This document shows, piece by piece, positions 4,842-34,782 of a DNA stretch of 36,109 bases. Origin of the DNA: Bacteroidales bacterium (lineage in GTDB: Bacteria; Bacteroidota; Bacteroidia; Bacteroidales; Azobacteroidaceae); the NCBI GenBank assembly GCA_003851245.1, contig BHEP01000028.1:1-36109 (forward strand), written 5' to 3'. The position numbers were made by a program, and so were the translations under genes. How positions within the stretch are numbered: the first letter of the stretch is position 1; every line of letters begins with the position of its first letter. The notes under the pieces were generated by a model. The model was not told where the DNA came from. It searched no databases and saw nothing but the letters and a program-made list of their open reading frames with translations.

Positions 4842-4939
4842 CTTATGTGATGCTTATGTGATGCTTATGTGATAGACTGGCTTTGTTGAAATATAAATGT
4901 CTTATTTACAATGAATTGTTATGTGATGCTTATGTGATA
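4842..4939. repeat. 11-bp direct repeats (cttatgtgatg), 3 + 2 copies
   Basis: Three near-perfect tandem copies of cttatgtgatg occupy 4842-4874 (the last ends in a). Two more occur at 4918-4939 after a 43-base spacer. They fill the intergenic gap just after the AlbA_2-type gene and just before the stop of the convergent DUF3078 gene. The copies are too short and too few to be CRISPR. Confidence 0.85.
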
Positions 4940-14600: not shown

Positions 14601-14650
14601 GGTGCAATTTTAAAATATTATTAAGGTCAGTGTTTTTATAGACAATTGTG

Positions 14651-14658
14651 CAAAGGTA
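14651..14658 (-). promoter_or_regulatory. -7 box for the GH43 gene
   Basis: The minus strand reads TACCTTTG, 50 bases before the GH43 start codon. It is divergent from the promoter of the alpha-2-macroglobulin gene. Confidence 0.55.
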
Positions 14659-14696
14659 GTACATTTTTTAATGACCTACTCACAGTGTTCAGCACT

Positions 14697-14732
14697 TATT
14701 TTGTTGTGGTCTATTATTTTGTTGTGGTCTAT
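14697..14732. repeat. Perfect 18-bp tandem duplication
   Basis: The unit tattttgttgtggtctat is present twice head to tail at 14697-14714 and 14715-14732. A third partial copy follows. It lies between the divergent GH43 and alpha-2-macroglobulin promoters and repeats a TTTTG that resembles a -33 element. Confidence 0.9.
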
Positions 14733-14771
14733 TTTTTTGTTATTATAATTTTTTATTCCATTTTAAACTCA

Positions 14772-14779
14772 TACATTTG
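14772..14779 (+). promoter_or_regulatory. -7 box for the alpha-2-macroglobulin gene
   Basis: TACATTTG fits TAnnTTTG. It leaves 40 bases to the ATG at 14820, which supports that start over the longer open frame reaching back to 14646. Confidence 0.5.
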
Positions 14780-14819
14780 TAAGTTAATAAGTAATTATAT
14801 TTTAGCATACCCTAACCCT

Positions 14820-17800
14820 ATGAAAAAGAAATTATACCTTCATTTCTTGTTTTTTGCCCTAGCTGCTATGGCTATGGTGCAAACTGCCTGTAAGCAAAAT
14901 AAGGAAATAGTGCCTTCGTCGGCTTTTGCAGCTTATATCAATTCCTATTCGGGAGGGCAAATGTCGGCTTATTCGACCATTAAAATAGAATTTACCCAAG
15001 ACCAGCCTATGGTAGAAATTGGGGTTGCGATAGATGATAAACTCTTTAATTTTTCGCCATCGCTCAAGGGGGAAGCCCATTGGGTAGATAGACGCACTAT
15101 AGAGTTTGTGCCTGATTCGGGGGCTTTGAAGTCTGGAACTCTCTACAATGCAGAGTTTAAGCTAGACGAGGTGATGGAAGTAGAGAAAGATTTACAAGAA
15201 TTTGCTTTTTCTTTTAGGGTGCAAGGCCTGAATTTTTCCTTCGATGTAGACGCAATAGAAGTTCTCAGTGCCGATGCAAGTAAGGTAAATATAAGCGGAG
15301 AAATAAGACTCAGCGACAAATCTTCTTTGGAAAAAGTTGAAAAAATGTTGTTGGTGAGTTTCGATGGCGATAATTCGTATGCTACGAAAGTTTTGGCTAC
15401 GCCCAACGAGCTCATTTATAGATTTGAAATAGACAATATACTCAAGGCGGCAGACGACAAACAGATGCGACTAGAATTTGATGGGAAATCTCTGGGCATA
15501 GACAAGAAAGTTGCTAAAGAAATACTCATTCCCGCCTTGTCCTCATTTAGAGTGCTAGAAGCCAAAATGATACAAGTTCCCGAAAATGGGATACAGATAA
15601 TATTCTCTGAGCCCCTTTTTAAGAGCCAAGGATTAAGAGGGCTGATAGATGTAGCTGGGATTTCCAACTATGTTTTTGAGATCGACAACAATAAGATAAA
15701 TGTTTTTTTTGAGAGGAACAAACTTACCTCCATCAATCTCGACGTGCACGGTGCAGTGCGCAATCATGCAGAGAAAAAATTGGGAAGCACGACCAGCTTT
15801 GTCCTTGATGTAGAATCTGTCAATCCCCAAATAGTTTTAACCTCTTCGGGGATGATATTGCCAGATTCTAAGAACCTTATTTTGCCTTTTAAAACAGTCA
15901 ATATTTCTGCGGTAGACGTGAAAATAATTCAGATATTTGAGAAAAATATCATGATTTTTTTACAGAACAATACACTAAGCTCCGAAAATGAGCTGAGGCG
16001 TTCGGGACGTTTGGTATATAGCACCACCATTCAATTGGATGCCGACCCTACACTCAAGCTCTCGGAATGGGCAGATTCATACATTGATCTGGCAGAGATT
16101 TTCAATAGAGAGCCTGGAGCCATTTATCGTGTTGAATTGGGTTTCAAAAAAGAATACTCTCTTTACGGAAGAGCCCACAATGCTTCAGGAAAAGTTCAAA
16201 ACAAGGCATTGACAAAAATATTAGCACCGCAATTGACAGAAGATGATGATAGATTTTGGGATATAGCTTCCCCTTATTATTATTCTGGAAGCTACGAAAA
16301 TATGGATTGGGATATCTACGATTGGGAAGACATACAGGATCCTTCTAAGCCTTCCTTCTACATGCTAAAATCAAATATCTCAACGTACTGCAATCTTATT
16401 GCATCCAATATTGGACTTATAGCCAAGGCCAATCAAGACAATTACCTGTGGCTAACAACCAATAGCATACTTACTACCGAGCCTCTTGCGGAGGTCGATG
16501 TGAAAGCCTACAACTTCCAATTGCAAGTTGTTGGAGAAGGAAAGACCGACAAGAATGGATTTGCCAGTTTCCCGTGTAAGGGCAAGCCTTTTGTTGTTGT
16601 TGCCCAAAAAGATCAGGATAAGGCCTACCTGCGTGTGGTGGATGGAGAAGAAAAATCGCTTACCCGTTTCGATATTGAGGGCAAAGAAACCCAAAAAGGA
16701 CTCAAAGGATATATCTTTGGAGAAAGAGGAGTATGGCGGCCTGGCGACACCCTGCATCTGGGATTCATCCTCGAAGATAGATTAAATAAAATACCCGACA
16801 ATCATCCCGTAGCCTTGGAACTGTACAATCCCAACGGACAATTTTATGCTAAGCAGATTTCTACCAAGGGAAAGGATGGGTTTTATGTCTTCAATGTGCC
16901 AACCAATGCCGACGACATAACAGGTATGTGGAGTGCCTACGTCAAATTGGGAGGTGCCAGCTTCTATAAATCTTTGCGCATAGAAATGATTAAGCCTAAT
17001 CGCTTGAAAGTCAATCTTAACATTCCTGTCTCTCGATTGGAAGCATCCTCAGGTACTGTCAAGGCAAAACTTTCTTCCAACTGGCTCACAGGAGCAATTG
17101 CCCGCGAGCTAAAAGTAAGTGTTGAGATGACACTCTCTAGGGTGCGCACACAGTTCAAGGGGTTTGAGAAATACGAATTTAACAATCCTGCCAGCTCCTT
17201 TGTGAGTGAAACAGTCTCTGTTTTTGAGGGTAAACTTGACGACAATGGAATGGTAGATTTCAATATGACATTGCCCGGCGCCAGCAATTCGCCAGGACTT
17301 TTGCAAGCCACCTTTGTGAGTAGGGTATTTGAGCCCAGTGGCGATGTGAGCACCTTTGTGCAAAGCATGCCCTATTCCCCATTCTCCTCGTATATAGGGC
17401 TCAATTTGAACGAAAAAGAAAACGAATATGCCTTGGAGACAGACAAGAATAATCTATTCGATATTGTTACTCTTAATGCTGATGGCAAGTTGATCGACAG
17501 ACAAAACATTGAATATAAGATTTATAAGATGAATTGGTCGTGGTGGTGGCATCGCAACTCCACATCATTCGACTCTTATATCAACAATAGTTCAATAGAG
17601 GCATTGTTTTCAGGAAAATTAAGTACTAAAGGAGGTAAGGCAAGCATAAATTTCCAGATTGATTATCCCGAATGGGGCAGATATTTGGTTTATGTGGTAG
17701 ACAAAGAAAGTGGGCATGCCACAGGAAAAGTAGTATATGTAGACTGGCCAGAATGGCGAGGACGTGCAGCCAAGAATGATGCTGATGGTGTTAATATGCT

Positions 17801-20417
17801 ATCTTTTTCAGTCGACAAAAAGAGCTATGAAGTAGGCGAAGAAGTAACAGTAATAATTCCATCGGCTGCCAAAGGCAGGGCTCTTTTAGCCTTGGAAAAT
17901 GGAACTTCAGTACTCAGCCGCGCCTGGGTAGATATTTCCGAAGGAGGCGACACAAAATATAAATTTAAGGTTACAGAAGATATGGCTCCCAATTTTTACG
18001 TCCATATCAGTCTCCTGCAAGCACATGCCCAGACAGTAAACAGCCTACCAATACGCATGTACGGAGTAGTTCCTGTGATGGTGACTAATAAAAACTCCAA
18101 TCTCTTGCCAGAAATAAGCATGCCCGAAAGCCTTGAGCCCGAGAAAGAATTTACCGTAAAAATTAAGGAAAGCAAGGGCCGAGCAATGAGCTATACACTA
18201 GCCATTGTTGATGAGGGCTTGCTTGACCTTACGGCTTTCAAAACACCAGACCCATGGTCGGAATTTTATTCTCGAGATGCCCTTTCTATACGCACATGGG
18301 ATATGTATGATTACGTAATAGGGGCATTTGGAGCCAATTTCTCCCCTCTATTTAGTATTGGGGGCGACGAGTCTATGAAATCAGGCAATACTAAGGCCAA
18401 TAGATTCAAGCCTGTAGTTAAATTTATAGGGCCCTTTGCACTCAATAAAAATGGATCTGGCACCCACAAAATCACCCTCCCTATGTATGTGGGTTCAGTG
18501 CGTGTGATGGTGGTAGCCGCCCAAGAAGGAGCTTATGGAAATGCTGAAAAAACAGTGCCCGTAAAAAGCCCCTTGATGATTCTTCCTACCCTGCCTCGAG
18601 TGGTGAGTGTGGGCGAAGAAATTAAGCTGCCTGTAAATGTCTTTGTGATGGAAAATAATATAAAGGACGTGAGTGTCAAGGTAAGCACCACGGGCCTTAC
18701 TAAAATCTCCGATGCTGCCACTCGCTCTCTGCAATTCAATGCCGTAGGCGATAAAATGGCTTATTTTAATCTAAAGGTGGGCTCACAAACGGGCATAGAG
18801 AAAATAACAGTAACAGCAAGTGCCAATGGTAAAATTGCCAGCGAAACAATAGAAATAGATGTGCGCAACCCCAACCCCGCTGTTATCAGTAATACAGATG
18901 CACTTATTGCGCCTTCCAAGGAACAGGAATTTGATTTTGCATTGGGCAACAAGTCTGCGGAATCTTGGGTAAAAATCGAACTCTCACGTATTCCCTCTGC
19001 CGACATCAATAGGCGTTTTGACTACTTAGAATCTTACGAGCATTGTTGCTCCGAACAGTTGGTGTCTAAGGCATTTCCCCTACTCTACATAGAGCAATTC
19101 AAGGAATTGAGCCCCAAAGAATCCGAGACTGTAAAGAAAAATGTGCGTGAAGCTATTCGCCTGCTCTATGCTCGACAAATGGCTGATGGTGCATTTATGT
19201 ACTGGCCAGGACAAACCTATCAGTATGCCTGGGTAATCAATTATGTAGGGCATTTCCTTGTGGAAGCCCAAAAGAAAGGGTATGATGTGAATGCCGGTGT
19301 GCTTTCGCGCTGGAAAAAATTTCAGAAAAATAAGGCGCAACAGTGGACTTACAATAGCCCTAATTCGGAAAAATACAGATACCACCAGTCCGATTTGGAA
19401 CAATCGTACAGGCTCTACACCCTTGCTTTGGCAGGCGTTCCTGAGCTAGGAGCGATGAATAGACTCCAGGAAATAAAGGATCTAACAACACAATCGCGAT
19501 GGCGATTGGCGGCAGCTTATGCCTTAGATGGCAAGACCAAGCATGCCAAGGAATTGATATTTAACATCCCTTCGGAGATAGACGCTTATACTTCCAATAA
19601 TGCAAGCTTTGGATCCTCCTATCGCGACGAGGCAATGATCTTGGAGACCATGGTATTGCTGGGAGATATTAAAAAAGCATTCATTCAGGCTAATAAAATC
19701 TCTAAGAACCTTTCTTCAGAGTCCTATTTCAGCACGCAAACAACGGCCTACTCCTTGCTGGCAATGGCAAAGCTGGCAGAGAAAGTCGGCGATGGAATGA
19801 TTGATGCAGAATGGTCTGTCAATGGGCAAACGCAAAAGGCAGTAAAAACGGCAAAAGCTGTCTACCAATTAAGCATACCTGATAATATATTGGAGGGAAA
19901 AATTAAACTAAAGAACCTCGGAAAGGGTGATTTGTTCGTGAATCTTACAAGCAAGTATAAGCCACTCATTGATAGTCTACAAGCTGTAAGCAACAACCTG
20001 CAAATAAATATTTCATATACGTCCACAGGGGGCATTCCTATGGATGTGTCGAGATTGCAGCAGGGCTCTGATTTTGTGGCTTTGGTAAGTGTGACCAATA
20101 CGAGCATAGTCAACGATTACAACGAACTTGCACTGACTCATATATTTCCTGCAGGTTGGGAAATATACAACCAGCGTATGATGACGACAGATGATCAGCA
20201 GGGAGAGGGCTCCAGAACATTCAGCTACCAAGATATTCGCGACGACAGGGTGTTCACCTATTTTAATCTCTTTCGTGGTCAGAGCAAGATTTTTAGAATC
20301 CGTCTGCAAGCAGCTTATATTGGTAAATATACCCTTCCTGCAGTGCAATGCGAGGCAATGTATGATACAGGAGCGCAAGCTAGAACTAGGAGTGGCATAG
20401 TGGAGGTCTTGGAATAA
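14820..20417 (+). CDS. Bacterial alpha-2-macroglobulin lipoprotein
   Basis: The protein has 1865 residues from ATG 14820. The frame is open back to 14646 but that part is low-complexity and non-coding in character. KKKLYLHFLFFALAAMAMVQ ends in T-A-C, a lipobox, so it is membrane-anchored and periplasmic. After the MG domains, GYIFGERGVWRPGDTLHLGF marks the MG3/4 region. VDEGLLDLTAF precedes the bait and C-terminal half. C-S-E-Q (about residues 1410-1413) is an intact thioester motif, followed by the alpha-alpha toroid and a receptor-like MG10 end. Such proteins trap proteases that breach the envelope. A penicillin-binding protein 1C gene often sits beside this family but is absent here. The C-terminus EVLE lies inside an inverted repeat. 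Confidence 0.93.
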   Translation: MKKKLYLHFLFFALAAMAMVQTACKQNKEIVPSSAFAAYINSYSGGQMSAYSTIKIEFTQDQPMVEIGVAIDDKLFNFSPSLKGEAHWVDRRTIEFVPDSGALKSGTLYNAEFKLDEVMEVEKDLQEFAFSFRVQGLNFSFDVDAIEVLSADASKVNISGEIRLSDKSSLEKVEKMLLVSFDGDNSYATKVLATPNELIYRFEIDNILKAADDKQMRLEFDGKSLGIDKKVAKEILIPALSSFRVLEAKMIQVPENGIQIIFSEPLFKSQGLRGLIDVAGISNYVFEIDNNKINVFFERNKLTSINLDVHGAVRNHAEKKLGSTTSFVLDVESVNPQIVLTSSGMILPDSKNLILPFKTVNISAVDVKIIQIFEKNIMIFLQNNTLSSENELRRSGRLVYSTTIQLDADPTLKLSEWADSYIDLAEIFNREPGAIYRVELGFKKEYSLYGRAHNASGKVQNKALTKILAPQLTEDDDRFWDIASPYYYSGSYENMDWDIYDWEDIQDPSKPSFYMLKSNISTYCNLIASNIGLIAKANQDNYLWLTTNSILTTEPLAEVDVKAYNFQLQVVGEGKTDKNGFASFPCKGKPFVVVAQKDQDKAYLRVVDGEEKSLTRFDIEGKETQKGLKGYIFGERGVWRPGDTLHLGFILEDRLNKIPDNHPVALELYNPNGQFYAKQISTKGKDGFYVFNVPTNADDITGMWSAYVKLGGASFYKSLRIEMIKPNRLKVNLNIPVSRLEASSGTVKAKLSSNWLTGAIARELKVSVEMTLSRVRTQFKGFEKYEFNNPASSFVSETVSVFEGKLDDNGMVDFNMTLPGASNSPGLLQATFVSRVFEPSGDVSTFVQSMPYSPFSSYIGLNLNEKENEYALETDKNNLFDIVTLNADGKLIDRQNIEYKIYKMNWSWWWHRNSTSFDSYINNSSIEALFSGKLSTKGGKASINFQIDYPEWGRYLVYVVDKESGHATGKVVYVDWPEWRGRAAKNDADGVNMLSFSVDKKSYEVGEEVTVIIPSAAKGRALLALENGTSVLSRAWVDISEGGDTKYKFKVTEDMAPNFYVHISLLQAHAQTVNSLPIRMYGVVPVMVTNKNSNLLPEISMPESLEPEKEFTVKIKESKGRAMSYTLAIVDEGLLDLTAFKTPDPWSEFYSRDALSIRTWDMYDYVIGAFGANFSPLFSIGGDESMKSGNTKANRFKPVVKFIGPFALNKNGSGTHKITLPMYVGSVRVMVVAAQEGAYGNAEKTVPVKSPLMILPTLPRVVSVGEEIKLPVNVFVMENNIKDVSVKVSTTGLTKISDAATRSLQFNAVGDKMAYFNLKVGSQTGIEKITVTASANGKIASETIEIDVRNPNPAVISNTDALIAPSKEQEFDFALGNKSAESWVKIELSRIPSADINRRFDYLESYEHCCSEQLVSKAFPLLYIEQFKELSPKESETVKKNVREAIRLLYARQMADGAFMYWPGQTYQYAWVINYVGHFLVEAQKKGYDVNAGVLSRWKKFQKNKAQQWTYNSPNSEKYRYHQSDLEQSYRLYTLALAGVPELGAMNRLQEIKDLTTQSRWRLAAAYALDGKTKHAKELIFNIPSEIDAYTSNNASFGSSYRDEAMILETMVLLGDIKKAFIQANKISKNLSSESYFSTQTTAYSLLAMAKLAEKVGDGMIDAEWSVNGQTQKAVKTAKAVYQLSIPDNILEGKIKLKNLGKGDLFVNLTSKYKPLIDSLQAVSNNLQINISYTSTGGIPMDVSRLQQGSDFVALVSVTNTSIVNDYNELALTHIFPAGWEIYNQRMMTTDDQQGEGSRTFSYQDIRDDRVFTYFNLFRGQSKIFRIRLQAAYIGKYTLPAVQCEAMYDTGAQARTRSGIVEVLE

Positions 20418-20446
20418 GTCAGGAGCCTATCTCAGCCCAAGACCTC
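20403..20446. terminator. Inverted repeat between convergent genes, likely bidirectional terminator
   Basis: GAGGTCTTGG at 20403-20412 and CCAAGACCTC at 20437-20446 are perfect 10-base arms around a 24-base loop. The left arm encodes the last residues of the alpha-2-macroglobulin. The right arm, on the minus strand, encodes the predicted original end of the nuclease-domain remnant (EVLG). There is no T-run, so termination is inferred from position and symmetry. Confidence 0.5.
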
Positions 20447-20781
20447 ATGCTTAGATTCAGTGATGTTTTTGTCGTCGCTGCTGAAATTGATGGCTATCTG
20501 CTGAAATTGATGGCTATCAGATGTATTGGTTTGTCTAGGCTGGCATATTTCTCGGCATAGCCATGGGTCTTTATCTGATCCATCGCTATATCTGCCGATT
20601 CGTTGTGCTTGAACTCAAATATAAACATCGCCTTATGGCTTTCGCAGGCTGCATCTATGCGCCCCTTGTTGGTCTGCATCTCTGCATTGAAGCGGTAGGG
20701 CAGCAGATGAAAGATGCAGTAAAAAACTGTGTGGTAGTAGGCCTCTGTTGATGTAAATCTAAAAGGATATAAAAATCGCTA
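20432..20781 (-). pseudogene. C-terminal remnant of an AAA-ATPase-like / PD-(D/E)XK nuclease (DUF1703) protein
   Basis: The minus strand from about 20760 to 20494 reads TSTEAYYHTVFYCIFHLLPY, then NKGRIDAACES and FIFEFKHNESADIAMDQIK. This is the C-terminal nuclease-like domain (R-x-D, F-E-F-K) of proteins with an N-terminal AAA-ATPase-like domain that are abundant in Bacteroidales. The ATPase part is missing upstream. The reading frame ends at 20494 because a 20-base unit is duplicated at 20478-20517. Removing one copy extends the frame through INFSSDDKNIT and ends at TGA 20432-20434, close to the family's usual tail. So this is a broken fragment of about 110 codons, truncated at its 5' end and frameshifted at its 3' end. 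Confidence 0.8.
20478..20517. repeat. Perfect 20-bp tandem duplication inside the nuclease remnant
   Basis: ctgctgaaattgatggctat occurs at 20478-20497 and 20498-20517. Twenty is not a multiple of three, so the duplication shifts the frame of the minus-strand remnant. Confidence 0.95.
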
Positions 20782-20873
20782 TGAATACGAGTCGTTATAA
20801 AGTCACCGGTAAAGGACAAAAAGCAGATGCTTAAGCTAAATTTGCAGATTAGATTTATATAGAACAGGGTCAG
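20781..20873 (+). pseudogene. 3'-end remnant of an HpaII-like endonuclease gene
   Basis: Bases 20819-20873 repeat the complement of 30838-30892 with 54 of 55 identical. In the frame of the intact endonuclease they encode KLNLQIRFI and stop. Just before, from 20781, MNTSRYKVTGKGQK resembles the intact protein's MDT..STRYRFG..GEKQ, with a small gap and a one-base shift in the A-run at 20818-20822. The 55-base identity is direct. The homology of the preceding 38 bases is my own alignment and is weaker. The rest of the gap to the AraC gene (20874-20910) shows nothing more. Confidence 0.6.
20819..20873 (+). repeat. 55-bp inverted repeat, arm A (partner 30838-30892)
   Basis: The arm starts aaaagcagatgcttaagc and ends agaacagggtcag. 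It equals the reverse complement of 30838-30892 except at 20829 (g here, a in the other arm's orientation). The arms are 10 kb apart in opposite orientation. Confidence 0.95.
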
Positions 20874-20910
20874 GAGTGTTAATTCTTACGCATCAATTAT
20901 ATTTTAAGAT

Positions 20911-21795
20911 ATGGAAAAAATAGCCGACGGTTTCAAAGGAGAAAAAGCCATAATCACTCCTTATAATATTCGCCAACTACAAACGCAAAATCCCATCTGC
21001 AGCCAGCTTTTCTTGACGCATATAGGATATTATCCTAAGGCAAAGTTTCATTTTAGGGAACGCATAGAGGGCAATAAGGAATACATCCTTCTCTATTGTG
21101 AGAAGGGCAGCGGGTGGGTAGAATACCAATTAGAAAGGTATTTGCTGAAAGAAAATCAGGTTTTTATCATTCCTCCTAGCCAAGCTCATGCTTATGGAGC
21201 CGACCCCAAGGATCCTTGGAGCATCTATTGGCTTCATTTTAGGGGAGATAATGCTGCTATGTTCGACTCCATTATGGGCAAAATAATGGACATCGAAGAT
21301 TCCGACAAGGGCAGGCACAAGGATAGGTTCTTGCTATTTGAAGAGATGTATCAAAACCTCAGCATGGGTTATAGCCCCGAGAACCTCGAATATATTAGCT
21401 TTTGCCTGATGCACTTCTTGGCTTCTATCAAATATCTCAACCAATTTAGAGAGATAAAGAAGGTAAAAGAAAGCGATATTATACAAAAAAGTATTGTATA
21501 TATGAAGGAGCACTTAGAAACAAAAACTAGCCTCGAAGATATTGCGCAACACGTATCCTACTCTACCTCACATTTTTGTAGCCTATTTACGCAGCGCACC
21601 TCCTACTCTCCGGTGGAGTATTACCACCAACTAAAAATACAGCGTGCTTGTTCCTATCTTCAATTTTCGGACCTAAAAATCAAGGAAATAGCCTTCCGCC
21701 TATGCTACTTCGATCCCTTTCATTTCTCCAAAGCCTTTAGGCAGGAGATGGAAATAAGCCCCTCTGAATATAGGCAGAGGTATAGGAATGGCTAA
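20911..21795 (+). CDS. AraC-family transcriptional regulator
   Basis: The protein has 294 residues. The N-terminal cupin-type sensor (about 20-165) includes HFRERIEGNKEYILLYCEKG, an internal NQVFIIPPSQAHAYG and DPWSIYWLHFRG, typical of arabinose-binding-like AraC domains. Two helix-turn-helix motifs lie at about 195-290. The first is TSLEDIAQHVSYSTSHFCSL; the second is IKEIAFRLCYFDPFHFSKAF followed by G-less E-I-S-P-S-E-Y. Such regulators usually activate carbohydrate-use genes. The natural target is unclear; the neighbouring MBL gene is convergent. The gene follows directly on the endonuclease remnant. No TAnnTTTG box is evident upstream. Confidence 0.92.
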   Translation: MEKIADGFKGEKAIITPYNIRQLQTQNPICSQLFLTHIGYYPKAKFHFRERIEGNKEYILLYCEKGSGWVEYQLERYLLKENQVFIIPPSQAHAYGADPKDPWSIYWLHFRGDNAAMFDSIMGKIMDIEDSDKGRHKDRFLLFEEMYQNLSMGYSPENLEYISFCLMHFLASIKYLNQFREIKKVKESDIIQKSIVYMKEHLETKTSLEDIAQHVSYSTSHFCSLFTQRTSYSPVEYYHQLKIQRACSYLQFSDLKIKEIAFRLCYFDPFHFSKAFRQEMEISPSEYRQRYRNG

Positions 21796-22838: not shown

Positions 22839-22852
22839 CTAAAAAATTGATC

Positions 22853-23141
22853 ATGAGTGCCAAATTCAAACCCATAGCAACAGATATTTATACTTTTGAA
22901 GAAATGATCAAAAGCAATTATCTGTACGTCGATAAGACCGACTGCTTTGTATTGATGACGGGAGTAGCCAAATTTACTAAGGTCAGCATCTTCTCTAAGC
23001 TCAACAGCCTCTTCGACATTACGATGGATGCCCACATACTCCTGCATGCTGGGCTATACGCAAATACATCTTATTGTAATAAATTTTTGTAGCACCGATA
23101 GAAATATAACCGACAGCTTGCACAAACAAATAGCAGAATAA
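22853..23141 (+). pseudogene. N-terminal remnant of an AAA-ATPase-like protein with internal deletion
   Basis: The start KFKPIATDIYTFEEMIKSNY and LYVDKTD is the conserved opening of the Bacteroidales AAA-ATPase-like family. It is fused directly to VLMTGVAKFTKVSIFSKLNS and LFDITMD, which in full proteins lies well over 100 residues later. The Walker A and B region has therefore been deleted in frame. At about 23033 the frame shifts: reading from 23037 gives YSCMLGYTQ and then a decayed segment to TAA 23139-23141. The original frame instead ends at TAG 23090-23092. The nuclease domain expected at the C-terminus is missing here; a fragment of that type sits at 20432-20781 on the other strand. 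The short stretch to rfbD (23142-23176) is empty. Confidence 0.75.
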
Positions 23142-29389: not shown

Positions 29390-30793
29390 TTAAGTCCAAG
29401 GTTTTTGAGCTTTATATCCTGCCCCCACAAGAAGTCCGCTGCCCCTATTGAGCTGAGATGTGGCAGTGGCGTAAGCCGTTTGTGTTCTTTGTAGGTGCTT
29501 GCCTACATCTTCTAAGGATGACCCAAAGGACACAAATTTTTCGTAAAGCAGCTCCCCATGCTTCACTATTTCCATGGCATTATTGCTCTGCATCTCGCGC
29601 TTCCACAAGTCGGAAATAAGTTTTAGGCAGGCAATGAGGTTGGTGGGGCTAATGAGGAGAATACGCTTTGAATAGGCATAGTCCCAAAGTTCTGGGTCGG
29701 CCTGTATGGCAAACATATATGCTGGTTCTATGGACACAAACATCATAGTAAAATCGAGGGAGTCCGTTAGATTGTCGTAATTCTTGCCTTGAAGATCATC
29801 GATATGCTTGCGTATGGAGAGCAGGTGTTCTGCCATATGCAAACTCTGCTCCGAGGAGTTTTGTGCAGAAGCAAACCTCTCGTAAGCCACAAGAGAGGCT
29901 TTGGAGTCGATGATGATAATCCGCCTGTCGGGAAGTTCCACGATAACATCTGGCCTTTGATTTTTGCCATCTTCGTTTTGTATGGTGGGCTGCACACGGT
30001 ATTGCTTATCTTTTAGGAGGCCCGATTTTTCCAATATGCTTTCTAGTATCATCTCTCCCCAGTTTCCCTGAGTTTTGGCCTGGGCACTTACCTTATTGTT
30101 TTGCTCTACCAGGTCTTTTACTTTCTCTTCTAGCGAAAATCTTTGTTTCGATTCCTTGTCGTAAGTCTCTTCTACCTTTTGCTTAAAAACGCTGATATTT
30201 TCGCTCAGGGGCTTCAACAAGGCCTCTATATTCACCTTATTGGGTTCTGTAATTTTTCCCGACTTATCTTCGAGTATTTTATTGACTATTTTTTCAAATT
30301 GCAGGTGCGCTGTTTTCTGCATCTCTATTATCTCCGCTTTGTGGGAAGACAACTTCTCCTCCAGTGCTTCGTTTTGCGAAGTCAAGCGGCTTTCACGCAC
30401 CTCCATTTGTTTGATCTGTTCTGTCAATATCTCAAGTTGAGCACTTTTTTTTTGCTCTATCTCTTCTTTTTCTTTTATGCGCTGCAGTGCATTTTTGTAG
30501 TCGGCTCCCATTTCTGCTATTTCTTGCTTGTAGGCATTAATTTTATCTTGCATATATATGCACATTTCCTCTTTTTGAGAGAGCAGGGTCTTTGCTTTAT
30601 TTAAATTCTCAGAGACTGCCACCTGCCGTGTTTCCAAAATAGCGATATCCCTTTGCAGCGAGGCTATAAGGTCATTCTGATTGTAAAAAAGCTCCTTATC
30701 GACAGTACTTTTTTTTTGCCTAAGGCTCGCAACAAGATAAGTAAGGAGGGCTCCAAGAAGGAAGCTCAGTAAAATAAAAACTATGTTCATCAT
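29390..30793 (-). CDS. rmuC: RmuC-family DNA recombination protein, frameshifted near C-terminus
   Basis: The protein has 467 residues. An N-terminal membrane segment (NIVFILLSFLLGALLTYLVA) is followed by a long coiled coil (about 45-190). The RmuC domain holds NWGEMILESILEKSGLLKDK, then RPDVIVELPDRRIIIIDSKA with the D-x-K core of a PD-(D/E)XK-like fold. RmuC limits recombination between inverted repeats. The last residues read GAGYKAQKPWT. Removing one G from the G5 run (plus-strand C5, 29422-29426) instead gives GQDIKLKNLGLKSNKQIP and a stop at 29341-29343, which fits the family better. The catalytic core is untouched. A -7 box ends five bases before the ATG. Confidence 0.9.
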   Translation of the reverse strand: MMNIVFILLSFLLGALLTYLVASLRQKKSTVDKELFYNQNDLIASLQRDIAILETRQVAVSENLNKAKTLLSQKEEMCIYMQDKINAYKQEIAEMGADYKNALQRIKEKEEIEQKKSAQLEILTEQIKQMEVRESRLTSQNEALEEKLSSHKAEIIEMQKTAHLQFEKIVNKILEDKSGKITEPNKVNIEALLKPLSENISVFKQKVEETYDKESKQRFSLEEKVKDLVEQNNKVSAQAKTQGNWGEMILESILEKSGLLKDKQYRVQPTIQNEDGKNQRPDVIVELPDRRIIIIDSKASLVAYERFASAQNSSEQSLHMAEHLLSIRKHIDDLQGKNYDNLTDSLDFTMMFVSIEPAYMFAIQADPELWDYAYSKRILLISPTNLIACLKLISDLWKREMQSNNAMEIVKHGELLYEKFVSFGSSLEDVGKHLQRTQTAYATATSQLNRGSGLLVGAGYKAQKPWT

Positions 30794-30798
30794 AAGTC

Positions 30799-30806
30799 CA
30801 AAAATA
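30799..30806 (-). promoter_or_regulatory. -7 box for rmuC
   Basis: The minus strand reads TATTTTTG. Only five bases separate it from the rmuC ATG at 30791-30793, so the transcript would start at or within a base or two of the start codon (leaderless candidate). A second ATG at 30788-30790 is an alternative start. Confidence 0.5.
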
Positions 30807-30837
30807 ATAAATTAATTGATTAATACACACCGCCTCA

Positions 30838-30892
30838 CTGACCCTGTTCTATATAAATCTAATCTGCAAATTTAGCTTAAGTATCTGCTTTT
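30838..30892 (-). repeat. 55-bp inverted repeat, arm B (partner 20819-20873)
   Basis: This arm covers the last 44 bases of the endonuclease gene including its stop, plus 11 bases downstream. The arm at 20819-20873 is its inverted copy with a single mismatch. Confidence 0.95.
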
Positions 30893-31931
30893 CGCCTATG
30901 TTTTCGACTATTCCAAATCTGTATCGAGTGCTGCTTGGCGTGTCCATAAAAGAAGTATTGAGCAGATAATTTTCAAATTCGTTGCGCTTGTATATGTGAT
31001 AACACAATACATCGCCATCTTTTTTTACCACAAGATAGCCCCCATTAGCATCAAATATTCCTGTCCATATGTGGGCAGGAGTCATACCCAATGCAGCATC
31101 GCAGAGTAGTCGTTTGAGTTTGTATTCATAAAATTTATGTTTGTCTCGCATGTCGTAGCCAAGGGGGTTTGTTTGCTGCAATCTTTCCGACAATTTATTT
31201 AACAATTTACCCTCGCCCGAATAATACATTAGTAGTAATTCTCCCATAATATTGGGCATGAAGCTATCAATCATTATTAGATTATTATTGAACACGGGCG
31301 AGTCTATACCATCAAAAGTCAGCAAAGCTCCCAATTCTTTGATACGCAAAATGCGATCGCGAATTTTGCTCTTTGTTTCGATGCTATTTATTTCGTCAAT
31401 TTGTATTTGAGTCAGTTTAACTCTACCAATAGTATAACGAAAATTTGTGGCTCTACTTGGGTTTATCAATGTCGAAGCGCCACCCATTTTAGACTTGATA
31501 CTGAAGCCTAGAGTTGGACACACACCAGTGTGTAGGTCGTGAATAATAATCTTAATATCAGTTTTGTCAGACGATTTTGCTTTAATCTTGGTGCAATATG
31601 CAGACCTCATAAACTGCTCTGTTTCGGGGCTTGTAAAAGCTCCCGCACTTTTTTTGATTATATTGAGTAAAAATTTAGCTTGCTTTGTAAATTCAGCCAC
31701 TGGTATACGTAACTCTTTCTTGCCATCGCCTGTAACGATGACTATATCTCCTTTGTGAATTGCAAATTCATAGTTTGTATTCTCCTCCTGTCTGAGAATT
31801 TTAATAATAGGATAGAACAAATCCTCAATTTTATTCAAATTACCATCACCTGCGAAGACTTTTTTATCTCCCAGCAACTTAAAGAGGGTATATACTTCGC
31901 TCCATTCGCCTTTGTTTCCAGAGAGTGCCAT
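30849..31931 (-). CDS. HpaII-family type II restriction endonuclease (CCGG predicted)
   Basis: The protein has 360 residues, about the length of R.HpaII. The start GNKGEWSEVYTLFKLLGDKK is the conserved opening of the RE_HpaII family. D-L-H-T-G-V-C-P-T-L-G-F-S-I-K-S-K near residues 133-149 contains an acidic residue followed by S-I-K-S-K, the likely variant PD-(D/E)XK nuclease core. It is predicted to cut unmethylated CCGG. The ATG lies three bases after the stop of the methyltransferase gene, so both are one operon with the methyltransferase first, which allows protection before cleavage. The frame is intact. Its 3' end is one arm of the 55-base inverted repeat. Confidence 0.9.
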   Translation of the reverse strand: MALSGNKGEWSEVYTLFKLLGDKKVFAGDGNLNKIEDLFYPIIKILRQEENTNYEFAIHKGDIVIVTGDGKKELRIPVAEFTKQAKFLLNIIKKSAGAFTSPETEQFMRSAYCTKIKAKSSDKTDIKIIIHDLHTGVCPTLGFSIKSKMGGASTLINPSRATNFRYTIGRVKLTQIQIDEINSIETKSKIRDRILRIKELGALLTFDGIDSPVFNNNLIMIDSFMPNIMGELLLMYYSGEGKLLNKLSERLQQTNPLGYDMRDKHKFYEYKLKRLLCDAALGMTPAHIWTGIFDANGGYLVVKKDGDVLCYHIYKRNEFENYLLNTSFMDTPSSTRYRFGIVENIGEKQILKLNLQIRFI

Positions 31932-31934
31932 GTT

Positions 31935-33182
31935 TTATTTTTTCAAAAGGTTAATTATCTGCTCTCCCGTTGCTTGTATTGCAGGTACGGCAACCGAATT
32001 GCCAAACTGCTTGTATGCTGAGGCATCAGCCACAGGAATTATAAAATTGTCTGGATACCCTTGTAATCTAGCCCATTCTCTAGGAGTCATCTTCCTTATA
32101 CCCTCGCGGTTGACTACCCCTTTGATTTTAGTGACGGGTGTAAAATCTATTATTCTATCGTCGAGAACTAAATTACGCTCACGCCCCATGCCTCCAACCA
32201 CTATGACATTGGAACACTTATCATCGCTTATAATTTCATAGCCAAAACCATTGCCTTTCTTCTCATGCCTCGCCTTGTGTGCTCTTAGTGTTTGTAGATA
32301 TTGAGTTGATAAATAGTATTTTGTGCTTACTACGCTCTTTTCTTTTACATCGGCAAATGTTGGCTCTTTATCTAAAGCTTTAGGATAGACAAATTCGCTT
32401 ATGCCCAAATCTTTTCTGAATGCGACAATGTATATGCGTTCTCGATTTTGGGGAACTCCAAAGTTTTTGGCATTAACAACCTGAGGCTCGGGTACAAAGT
32501 AGTTCAAATCTTCTCGCAAGGTGTGGATGATGGTTGCAAGAGTCTTTCCTCCATTATGGTTTATGAGACCTTTTACGTTTTCCAAAAATATAGCCTTTGG
32601 TTGCTTGTGTTTGATAATCGTAGCAAGGTCAAAAAAGAGTGTTCCTCGGGTATCCTCAAATCCGCCACGTTTACCAGCTATAGAAAATGCTTGGCAAGGA
32701 AATCCTGCACACAGCAGGTCAAAATTGTCGGGAATATACCCTTTAGTTTGTTCCGATGTTAAATCGCCAAAAGGCACCTCTCCAAAATTAGCAAAGTATG
32801 TCTTTTTAGCATCTTTGTCCCATTCTGATGAAAACACACACTTGCCTCCAAGGTTTTGCATCGCCATACGAAATCCTCCTATGCCTGCAAATAGATCTAT
32901 GAAAGTGAAGCTATAGTTCTTTGGCGTGGGGAATGGTGCGCCTTGAATCTCTTTCAGCATATTGTCAATGATACTGTCTTTATTTTGTAGAAACAGCTCA
33001 TTTGCCATTATTCTATCTAAAGCAAGCATTGCGTGAGGTTTGAAAAACTTGCAAACTCCAGTTCTGTAATTGTGTAGATAATGGCTTACAAGAGCTAAAT
33101 CGGTACTCGCAGAGTCCATCTTGTAGTGTGGCTTTGAGTATACCAAATTACCTATTATATTATTCTCTGTATTCAATACCAT
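31935..33182 (-). CDS. M.HpaII-like DNA (cytosine-5) methyltransferase (CCGG predicted)
   Basis: The protein has 415 residues. All C5-methyltransferase motifs are present: FIDLFAGIGGFRMAMQNLGG (I, from 94), GFPCQAFS with catalytic C163 (IV), ENVKGL (VI, 201), QNRERIYIVAF (VIII, 245) and PREWARLQGYPDNF (IX). Motif X is YKQFGNSVAVP. The target-recognition region KYYLSTQYLQTLRAHKARHE with GNGFGYEI closely resembles M.HpaII as I remember it, which supports CCGG. The first 90 or so residues form an extension of no known domain. Start codons at 33182, 33119 or further downstream remain possible. Two minus-strand -7 boxes lie upstream. Confidence 0.92.
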   Translation of the reverse strand: MVLNTENNIIGNLVYSKPHYKMDSASTDLALVSHYLHNYRTGVCKFFKPHAMLALDRIMANELFLQNKDSIIDNMLKEIQGAPFPTPKNYSFTFIDLFAGIGGFRMAMQNLGGKCVFSSEWDKDAKKTYFANFGEVPFGDLTSEQTKGYIPDNFDLLCAGFPCQAFSIAGKRGGFEDTRGTLFFDLATIIKHKQPKAIFLENVKGLINHNGGKTLATIIHTLREDLNYFVPEPQVVNAKNFGVPQNRERIYIVAFRKDLGISEFVYPKALDKEPTFADVKEKSVVSTKYYLSTQYLQTLRAHKARHEKKGNGFGYEIISDDKCSNVIVVGGMGRERNLVLDDRIIDFTPVTKIKGVVNREGIRKMTPREWARLQGYPDNFIIPVADASAYKQFGNSVAVPAIQATGEQIINLLKK

Positions 33183-33242
33183 ATTGTTTGTTGTATATTT
33201 CTAAAAGACTTTTTGCTGCCTTGCCTCCACCCATTGATACTG

Positions 33243-33250
33243 CAAAAGTA
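33243..33250 (-). promoter_or_regulatory. Proximal -7 box for the HpaII-type operon
   Basis: The minus strand reads TACTTTTG, 60 bases before the methyltransferase start. No -33 box is obvious. Confidence 0.45.
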
Positions 33251-33311
33251 CAGACAATAAAGAGTAGTTTAGCTAAGTCTATCTACTTTATATTAGCTTT
33301 AACCTGACAGC

Positions 33312-33334
33312 AAATGCAAAAATAAGCATTTTTT
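33312..33334. promoter_or_regulatory. Small hairpin with distal -7 box upstream of the HpaII-type operon
   Basis: AAATGC (33312-33317) and GCATTT (33326-33331) are 6-base arms with an 8-base loop, followed by Ts. The loop and left arm include TATTTTTG on the minus strand (33317-33324), a second possible -7 box for the methyltransferase. Function is uncertain. Confidence 0.35.
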
Positions 33335-33381
33335 ACATCCTTTCAGTAATATTGTCCATCTTTTGCATGCTCAATATCCCT

Positions 33382-33389
33382 TATCTTTG
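33382..33389 (+). promoter_or_regulatory. -7 box for the sugar porter gene
   Basis: TATCTTTG is a perfect TAnnTTTG match. Only four bases lie between it and the ATG at 33394, so the mRNA is probably leaderless. TTTG at 33362-33365 is a possible -33 element but the spacing is short (16 bases). Confidence 0.55.
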
Positions 33390-33393
33390 CAGT

Positions 33394-34782
33394 ATGAAAA
33401 ATAGAAACTATCTTTTCCTCATCTCCTTGGTTTCTGCCATGGGAGGTTTGCTCTTCGGCTACGACTGGGTAGTTATTGGGGGAGCTAAGCCCTTTTACGA
33501 AGTATATTTCGATATTGCTGGCTCCGCCTCCATGCAAGGCTGGGTTATGGGCAGTGCCATTTTGGGATGTCTCTGTGGAGTGATGGTGTCGGGGAGTTTG
33601 TCGGAGCGCTTTGGCAGAAAGCCCCTCATGATTGTTGCGGCCTTTGTTTTTCTAGTATCTGCCATAGGCACGGGCATGGTCGATAGCGTCACCTGGTTTA
33701 TTGTTTATCGATTGGTGGGTGGTGTGGCTATAGGTATTGCATCCAATTTGTCGCCCATGTATATTGCCGAAGTATCCCCTTCTGCAATACGCGGACGTTT
33801 TGTATCGATTTACCAATTGGCAATAGTGCTGGGTATTTTGGGAGCCCAAGTAGCAAACTGGTTGATAGCCGACCCCATACTGGATGGCGAAAACATACTC
33901 GCCACATGGAATGGGCAGATGGGATGGCGCTGGATGTTTTGGGCAGAGACTCTTCCTGCTTTGGCATACTTCGTATTGGTGTTTTTTATTCCCGAAAGCC
34001 CTCGCTGGCTTGCCAATCAGCAACAATATGATAGGGCAGAGAAGATACTAACAAATATTGGGGGGGCAGACTATGCCAAGCAAGAAGTAGCGGCAATAAA
34101 GTTTGCGGCAGGCAGTAGTACCGAAAAAGGATCTTTCAAACAGTTGTGGGAAGGCAAGATGCTAAAAATTGTGGTGATAGGCATCGTCATTGCAGCCTTT
34201 CAGCAATGGTGTGGCATAAATGTAATATTCAACTATGCGCAGGAGATATTCTCTTCGGCAGGCTATGGGGTGTCGGACATACTGTTCAATATAATTATTA
34301 CGGGACTAACAAACGTAGTCTTTACATTTATAGGCATGTATACCGTCGACAAGCTAGGGCGCAGGGCCTTGATGGTATTCGGATCCATTGGTTTGGCATT
34401 TATTTATGCCCTGCTGGGTGCGTGTTTCTATTTTGAAATAAGAGGAATAGCCGTCTTACTATTGGTAATGGCAGCCATTGCTACCTATGCCATGACTCTG
34501 GCACCGATTACCTGGGTGGTATTGTCCGAAATATTTCCCAACAAAATAAGGGCTATGGCTATGGGGGTGGCTACATTTGCGCTGTGGACTGCCTGTTTTG
34601 TGCTTACCTATACCTTTCCCCTACTCAACAAAAGCCTAGGAGCTTCAGGAACCTTTTGGCTCTATGGTGTGGTCTGTTTGTTGGGCTTTGTGTTTATCAA
34701 AAAGAACCTGCCCGAAACAAAGGGCAAGTCCTTAGAACAAATAGAGAAAGAACTAACAACGCCCAAGCCTCTAGAACAGTAG
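33394..34782 (+). CDS. Sugar porter family MFS transporter
   Basis: The protein has 462 residues from ATG 33394; a TTG further up (33352) precedes the promoter box and is rejected. There are twelve predicted membrane helices. Sugar-porter signatures are visible. MGGLLFGYDWVVIGGA is helix 1. RFGRK follows helix 2. PESPRWL precedes the central loop and QQWCGINVIFNY is the QQ-x-G-x-N sugar site in helix 7. PETKGKSLEQIE ends the protein. It probably imports a hexose or pentose with protons. It precedes a DUF5107 gene by 134 bases, a pairing suited to glycan use. Its last 20 bases before the stop recur at 34828-34847. Confidence 0.94.
   Translation: MKNRNYLFLISLVSAMGGLLFGYDWVVIGGAKPFYEVYFDIAGSASMQGWVMGSAILGCLCGVMVSGSLSERFGRKPLMIVAAFVFLVSAIGTGMVDSVTWFIVYRLVGGVAIGIASNLSPMYIAEVSPSAIRGRFVSIYQLAIVLGILGAQVANWLIADPILDGENILATWNGQMGWRWMFWAETLPALAYFVLVFFIPESPRWLANQQQYDRAEKILTNIGGADYAKQEVAAIKFAAGSSTEKGSFKQLWEGKMLKIVVIGIVIAAFQQWCGINVIFNYAQEIFSSAGYGVSDILFNIIITGLTNVVFTFIGMYTVDKLGRRALMVFGSIGLAFIYALLGACFYFEIRGIAVLLLVMAAIATYAMTLAPITWVVLSEIFPNKIRAMAMGVATFALWTACFVLTYTFPLLNKSLGASGTFWLYGVVCLLGFVFIKKNLPETKGKSLEQIEKELTTPKPLEQ

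Follow-up and report, generated by a model that had tools for sequence, protein, structure and literature searches.

A 20-bp tandem doubling in a DUF1703 nuclease fragment beside a probable inversion scar with a copied end of an HpaII-type restriction gene

The DUF1703 family, defined in PMC1913061, combines an N-terminal AAA-ATPase_like domain (PF09820) with a C-terminal PDDEXK_9 nuclease domain (PF08011), and the family description in that source gives GRID and EFK as motifs. An expansion of DUF1703 is described in Cardinium cCpun (PMC6387759). The term "DNA duplication associated with inversion", which PMC8963470 credits to Furuta et al. 2011, is applied there to a ~128-kb inversion that breaks a regulator gene in Thermus tengchongensis 15W; duplication with inversion in Helicobacter is mentioned in PMC4671568 and PMC3120642.

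The stretch of DNA analysed here, hereafter the window, comprises 36,109 nucleotides of a Bacteroidales bacterium (contig BHEP01000028.1). The literature searches made here listed no paper on this locus. As in the DUF1703 family and its cCpun expansion, to the extent that the sources above portray them, the window contains a PDDEXK_9 domain that scores above the cut-off and carries the motifs, and the genome holds many paralogues, some of them single-domain. Unlike the family at large, the copy in the window has kept just a 3' fragment and lacks both the ATPase half and a start of its own. Whereas the partial genes dealt with in the cCpun text (PMC6387759) all lie near scaffold borders, this fragment lies inside a contig. 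The rearrangement resembles the T. tengchongensis 15W case, as outlined in PMC8963470, in that a breakpoint falls at a regulator beside its partner operon. In DNA duplication associated with inversion, the duplicate stands in inverted form at both ends of the block, and the window shows this as well. The present rearrangement differs in that the block measures ~10 kb, the duplicate is 55 bp long and derives from a restriction gene, and the comparison here is with relatives outside the genus.

We assign a probability of roughly 0.74 to an account in which a young, probably neutral doubling sits in a dead nuclease fragment and in which a restriction-modification (R-M) pair was inserted nearby, followed by an inversion of ~10 kb that copied 55 bp. 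The doubling alone is minor: this genome bears several such scars of recent date. The probable inversion scar is the more informative feature. The neighborhood would constitute a compact, readable case in which an acquired R-M pair splits a regulator-transporter couple, after which an inversion carries along a fragment of the restriction gene. Table 1 lists the features of the locus.

Table 1 Features of the window that bear on the doubling and the rearrangement.
Feature	Position	Strand	Remarks
Long ORF, convergent neighbor of the remnant	14646..20417	+	True start probably downstream
Natural stop codon of the remnant	20432..20434	-	Frame reading
DUF1703 (PDDEXK_9) 3' remnant before the shift	20498..20753	-	Residues 427-510 of paralogue C11
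65-bp spacer, remnant to restriction-gene copy	20754..20818	.	Contains CCGG 20806-20809
Left arm, copy of the HpaII-type restriction gene 3' end	20819..20873	+	55 bp; ends LKLNLQIRFI-stop, plus 11 bp past the stop
AraC-family regulator	20911..21795	+	Apart from its divergent partner
Second decayed family copy in the window	22847..23141	+	Matches C11 residues ~1-30, 189-224, 502-522; both ends kept
RmuC-family gene, last of the presumed inverted block	29390..30793	-	Family match
Right arm, original site at the restriction gene 3' end	30838..30892	-	98% complementary to the left arm
HpaII-type restriction endonuclease (RE_HpaII), full length	30849..31931	-	PF09561 1-359 of 359
C5-cytosine DNA methyltransferase	31935..33182	-	Family match; adjoins RE_HpaII
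Methyltransferase-transporter intergenic region	33183..33393	.	Aligns with relatives' transporter-AraC interval; opposed promoter-like boxes
Sugar transporter (Sugar_tr/MFS)	33394..34782	+	AraC's divergent partner in relatives

The nuclease remnant and its doubling

An earlier note on this DNA had recognized the fragment as the remnant of a DUF1703-type nuclease, an assignment borne out by its match to PF08011 (72.8 bits, 2.6e-20; cut-off 25.5). Counted with the tail behind the frameshift, the whole remnant spans residues 427-523 of C11 (527 residues), which with C19 and C53 makes up its three closest paralogues. Homology to C11 begins only at residue 427, and the ATPase part is missing; at the DNA level this homology ends at 20753, and similarity to the C11 gene upstream past that position is at the level of shuffled sequences (31 versus a mean of 33.4). 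None of the 14 PF09820 places listed lies on the remnant's contig. The only open reading frame with a start in the remnant's frame encodes 61 amino acids from an ATG at 20679, inside the domain. The PD-(D/E)XK signature is kept (NKGRIDA and FIFEFKHN), as in C11, C19, and C53, and PADLOC returned no match for the remnant. The fragment is dead, and the missing 5' four fifths suffice to inactivate it even without the frameshift.

Comparison with the paralogues indicates how recently this happened. Of 254 sites compared between the remnant and C11, 31 differ, distributed 4/4/23 over the first, second, and third codon positions; the corresponding distributions are 4/4/19 against C19 and 3/4/20 against C53 (218 sites each). 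This third-position excess indicates that most of the divergence accrued under protein-level constraint, and the death of the gene is therefore recent. C11, C19, and C53 agree against the remnant at 20 sites, just 9 of which can be polarised with C8 and C45. These polarised changes, too few for timing the loss, fall on the remnant in five cases (1/2/2 by codon position) and on the other three copies in four (0/0/4).

Searches of the genome's own assembly revealed 12 places that match PF08011 and 14 that match PF09820 (E ≤ 0.001). Four further decayed copies of this subfamily were compared with C11, and all four have lost interior sequence while keeping both ends: C42 retains residues 1-382 and 513-527 in C11 numbering, C8 and C45 preserve the two ends and have interior parts missing or broken relative to C11, and the fourth is the second decayed copy in the window. 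This comparison omits C2, C68, C19, and C53, which are cut by contig ends. The remnant, with its 5' end lost, is the exception among the decayed copies. This exceptional pattern would fit a different cause for the loss. C42 was considered as the relocated missing half of the remnant and rejected, since it has a C-terminal end of its own (513-527) and is an inner-deletion copy. By eye, ~50 bp upstream of the start are common to the paralogues C11, C42, and C68 (L049, L048, and L050), and the 3' similarity of these copies stops at the stop codon, a pattern that would suit a gene carrying its promoter along as it spreads.

The doubling itself is exact, as had been noted before. The unit CTGCTGAAATTGATGGCTAT occurs twice in the window scan, head-to-tail and identical, at 20478-20497 and 20498-20517, and the repeat runs 1 bp past the two units to give 41 bp in total. 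The window contains no third site at up to 2 mismatches (0 in 100 shuffles), and the doubled 40-mer has no match elsewhere in the 2.94-Mb assembly at up to 3 mismatches. The frameshift reported previously is likewise present. In one frame of the minus strand, the PDDEXK_9 reading frame runs through PIHLIAINFSR and closes on a stop directly after AINFSR, whereas the remnant's tail after the shift, SDDKNITESKHEVLG and a stop, lies in a different frame. That second minus-strand frame ends in AINFSSDDKNITESKHEVLG and a stop at 20434-20432, in agreement with the natural stop at 20432 proposed earlier; here the two frames were read separately, with no copy of the unit taken out. Paralogue C53, which has a single unit, reads AINFSSIDKNIT without interruption, and alignments with C11 and C19 show a 20-bp gap opposite the doubling, as expected of a single unit. 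The single unit in all three paralogues of this genome indicates that, among paralogues, the doubling is the derived state; the other genomes searched all lie outside the genus.

Exact tandem duplications with units of at least 10 bp number three in the window, compared with one across 40 shuffled windows pooled. In 400 kb of other contigs of the same genome we counted eight, with units of 15-59, one of which is a multiple of a 12-bp unit. The 20-bp doubling is thus beyond chance when measured against shuffles, yet ordinary against the genome's own background. It also looks like ordinary slippage or end-joining duplications: an exact 20-bp repeat with a 1-bp overlap, present as a single copy in three paralogues, has nothing distinctive about it. 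The two copies differ at 0 of 20 positions, which indicates that the doubling is young. The genome has no match for a Ku gene, and Ku-type end joining was rejected as its source for that reason; the 1 bp shared at the edges together with the missing Ku match makes polymerase slippage or Ku-free joining the likely route. The other two tandem duplications in the window have an 11-bp unit (4842-4873), which starts just past the end (4838) of an ORF, and an 18-bp unit (14696-14733) close to where the long ORF opens at 14646 and probably upstream of its true start. The product of this long ORF may be alpha-2-macroglobulin-like. Searches for tRNAs and for Rfam families at the gathering score gave no match in the window.

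The earlier note regarded the doubling as a clear molecular cause of inactivation. This part is not supported: the fragment is without its 5' four fifths in any case, and the shift, which falls behind the GRID...FEFK motifs, costs only the last 15 residues. The note also placed the doubling at or after the loss of the 5' part, whereas the identity of the two copies says no more than that the doubling is young. A variant of the idea is that the doubling was the inactivating hit in a gene that was complete at the time, and that the 5' part was lost afterwards with nothing keeping it. The frameshift is real, and the 4/4/23 codon pattern points to constraint until recently. Such a hit would, however, have cost just 15 residues behind the nuclease motifs, and identical copies give no sign that the doubling is older than the 5' loss. 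Moreover, the four other decayed copies bear inner deletions, with the doubled unit nowhere else in the assembly. We therefore consider this order of events improbable and favor a doubling that is young, probably neutral, and sits in a dead DUF1703 3' fragment.

The split AraC-transporter couple and the HpaII-type pair

In the window, the AraC-family regulator gene and the sugar transporter gene lie on one strand, ~12 kb apart, with the R-M pair between them. In relatives the two genes are neighbors: of the 10 non-own loci at no less than 58% identity, 8 have them adjacent and divergent, with a gap of 115-200 bp. Over all non-own loci the pair is found in 11 of 21; the misses comprise two among the 10 closest loci and eight among the 11 more distant ones, including one locus without upstream DNA. 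A second set of 12 loci, which overlaps the first (L055 / G015:C142), has the pair divergent and adjacent in 10, the misses being L057 and L064 (26%-identical Paracoccaceae gene).

The RE_HpaII gene lies beside a C5 methyltransferase gene, as an HpaII-type R-M system requires, and the full-length endonuclease and adjacent methyltransferase are features that the pair shares with its type. A search for RE_HpaII in 36 family genomes picked up one, the genome studied here, and the pair was therefore probably acquired; over all 60 genomes the count is 2. What is particular to this pair is its placement in the regulator-transporter intergenic region.

The intergenic region between AraC and transporter of 11 relatives aligns to the window's transporter side, where this region has been left. 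A TAnnTTTG-type box, which we take to be a promoter-type box, points toward the transporter in 11 of these 11 relatives and toward AraC in 9 (all except L053 and L054); the window's transporter side carries both opposed boxes. On the AraC side, only 37 bp (20874-20910) separate the 55-bp copy from the regulator gene, and this interval contains no TAnnTTTG-type box. A promoter-like match, TAAATTTG, lies at 20837 within the 55-bp copy, so AraC may still be expressed. These arrangements point to an insertion in which the R-M pair would have entered between AraC's promoter and AraC, thereby splitting the couple. The regulator's old divergent promoter region (33183-33393) now faces the methyltransferase gene, and the R-M pair is perhaps read from that promoter.

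Inverted arms and the proposed inversion

The left arm, a copy of the restriction-gene end with a stop codon at 20860-20862, is separated by 65 bp from the 5' end of the remnant, a feature absent from the earlier note. It sits right before AraC; the neighbors of the transporter are the restriction and methyltransferase genes. The two arms are 55 nt long, inverted, 98% identical, and 9964 nt apart, and the flanking bases show no relation on either side (7/25 and 5/25 identical). A genome search found two copies of the segment and no others. An exact 30-mer scan of 20 other 20-kb pieces of the same genome revealed no distant inverted pair; it did identify one hairpin with 30-bp arms. The same segment thus stands inverted at both ends of the block between unrelated flanks, as expected for DNA duplication associated with inversion.

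The arrangement suggests a model in which, after insertion of the R-M pair, the ~10 kb that run from AraC to rmuC turned over between two breaks, one where the restriction gene has its 3' end and one beside the nuclease remnant. A 55-bp piece of the restriction gene would have been copied to the far end of the block, as in DNA duplication associated with inversion, and the inversion would have brought AraC up against the remnant. When the block is turned back in thought, AraC would immediately follow the end of the restriction gene and diverge from the transporter, as in relatives save for the R-M pair. We infer the inversion and the order of events from this geometry. The inversion may have removed the 5' part of the nuclease gene or may have met a gene that was already shortened; this part is absent from the other breakpoint (30794-30837), so its loss may predate the inversion. 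The neighbors of rmuC are not conserved among relatives, and in none of these do remnant and rmuC adjoin as they would have before the inversion; relatives therefore serve as outgroup for only one of the two breakpoints, that at the AraC/transporter end. Strand composition of the block was considered as a sign of inversion, and gene strand dominates the signal.

The arms could also have come first. According to this explanation, a stray restriction-gene end came to lie by the remnant, and homologous recombination between the arms then flipped the block, perhaps repeatedly. Arms of 55 nt and 98% identity are long enough for occasional recombination, and their inverted placement ~10 kb apart suits it. 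The explanation requires a separate, unexplained event for the first copy, however, and the assembly shows one orientation only. In addition, the arm abuts AraC, which would be the natural neighbor of the restriction-gene end in an ancestor with the inserted R-M pair. For these reasons we find it unlikely that the arms preceded the inversion.

An assembly artefact would account for the doubling, the orientation of the block, or both. The assembly is in 118 contigs, and the family copies C19 and C53 stop at contig ends, which indicates that repeats broke the assembly. Assembly words shorter than 55 bases could have left the orientation of the block to the assembler, although both arms would exist regardless. 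As for the doubling, reads are usually much longer than a 41-bp tandem, and the assembly has no doubled unit elsewhere that could have lent it. We consider an artefact very improbable and retain the inversion model.

The 65 bp between remnant and left arm (20754-20818) gave no match above chance. As the nuclease gene's own upstream region this spacer is unconvincing against shuffles, 500 of which were scored per comparison: the observed score was reached by 26 shuffles for C11, 121 for C42, 100 for C68, 42 for C2, 326 for C8, 147 for W2, and 119 for the whole C11 gene.

CCGG and the restriction enzyme

The presumed target of the R-M pair is CCGG. The window contains 9 CCGG sites compared with 38.3 expected from trinucleotides (0.24), the lowest ratio of 16 palindromes. 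In 400 kb of other contigs of this genome (20 pieces of 20 kb, L099-L118), CCGG is again the lowest of the 16 tetranucleotide palindromes with 214 sites against 456.8 expected (0.47). GGCC is nearly as depleted in the same 400 kb (0.54), and in 63 kb of other pieces of the genome the ratios are 0.39 for GGCC and 0.40 for CCGG. The depletion is thus not specific to CCGG. In eight family genomes the CCGG ratio ranges from 0.84 to 1.40; G006, with zero counts throughout, was left out of this comparison. Among the relatives' 15 loci, 14 have ratios of 0.91-1.38 and that of an uncultured Prevotella has 0.66. The other genome with RE_HpaII, G029, shows no avoidance of CCGG (19 sites against 14.3, or 1.33, in 10.9 kb), which speaks against tying the gene to the avoidance.

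The left arm's outer junction is 9 bp away from the CCGG in the spacer (20806-20809), and 0.55% of window positions are this close to a CCGG; the other three junction edges are 64, 3329, and 3384 bp from the nearest site. This proximity was spotted after the fact with four edges in view and is a lead only. It is tempting to speculate that the restriction enzyme itself made the inversion. The enzyme would have cut the unprotected CCGG in the spacer, and repair against the end of the restriction gene would have flipped the 10-kb block and left the 55-bp copy, thereby keeping AraC off its old promoter, which now stands before the methyltransferase gene. We regard this extension of the inversion model as doubtful. 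If the CCGG at the junction is no accident, the locus would record how a restriction enzyme reshaped the chromosome of its own host.

CCGG and GGCC are both depleted in this genome, which may reflect restriction against both.
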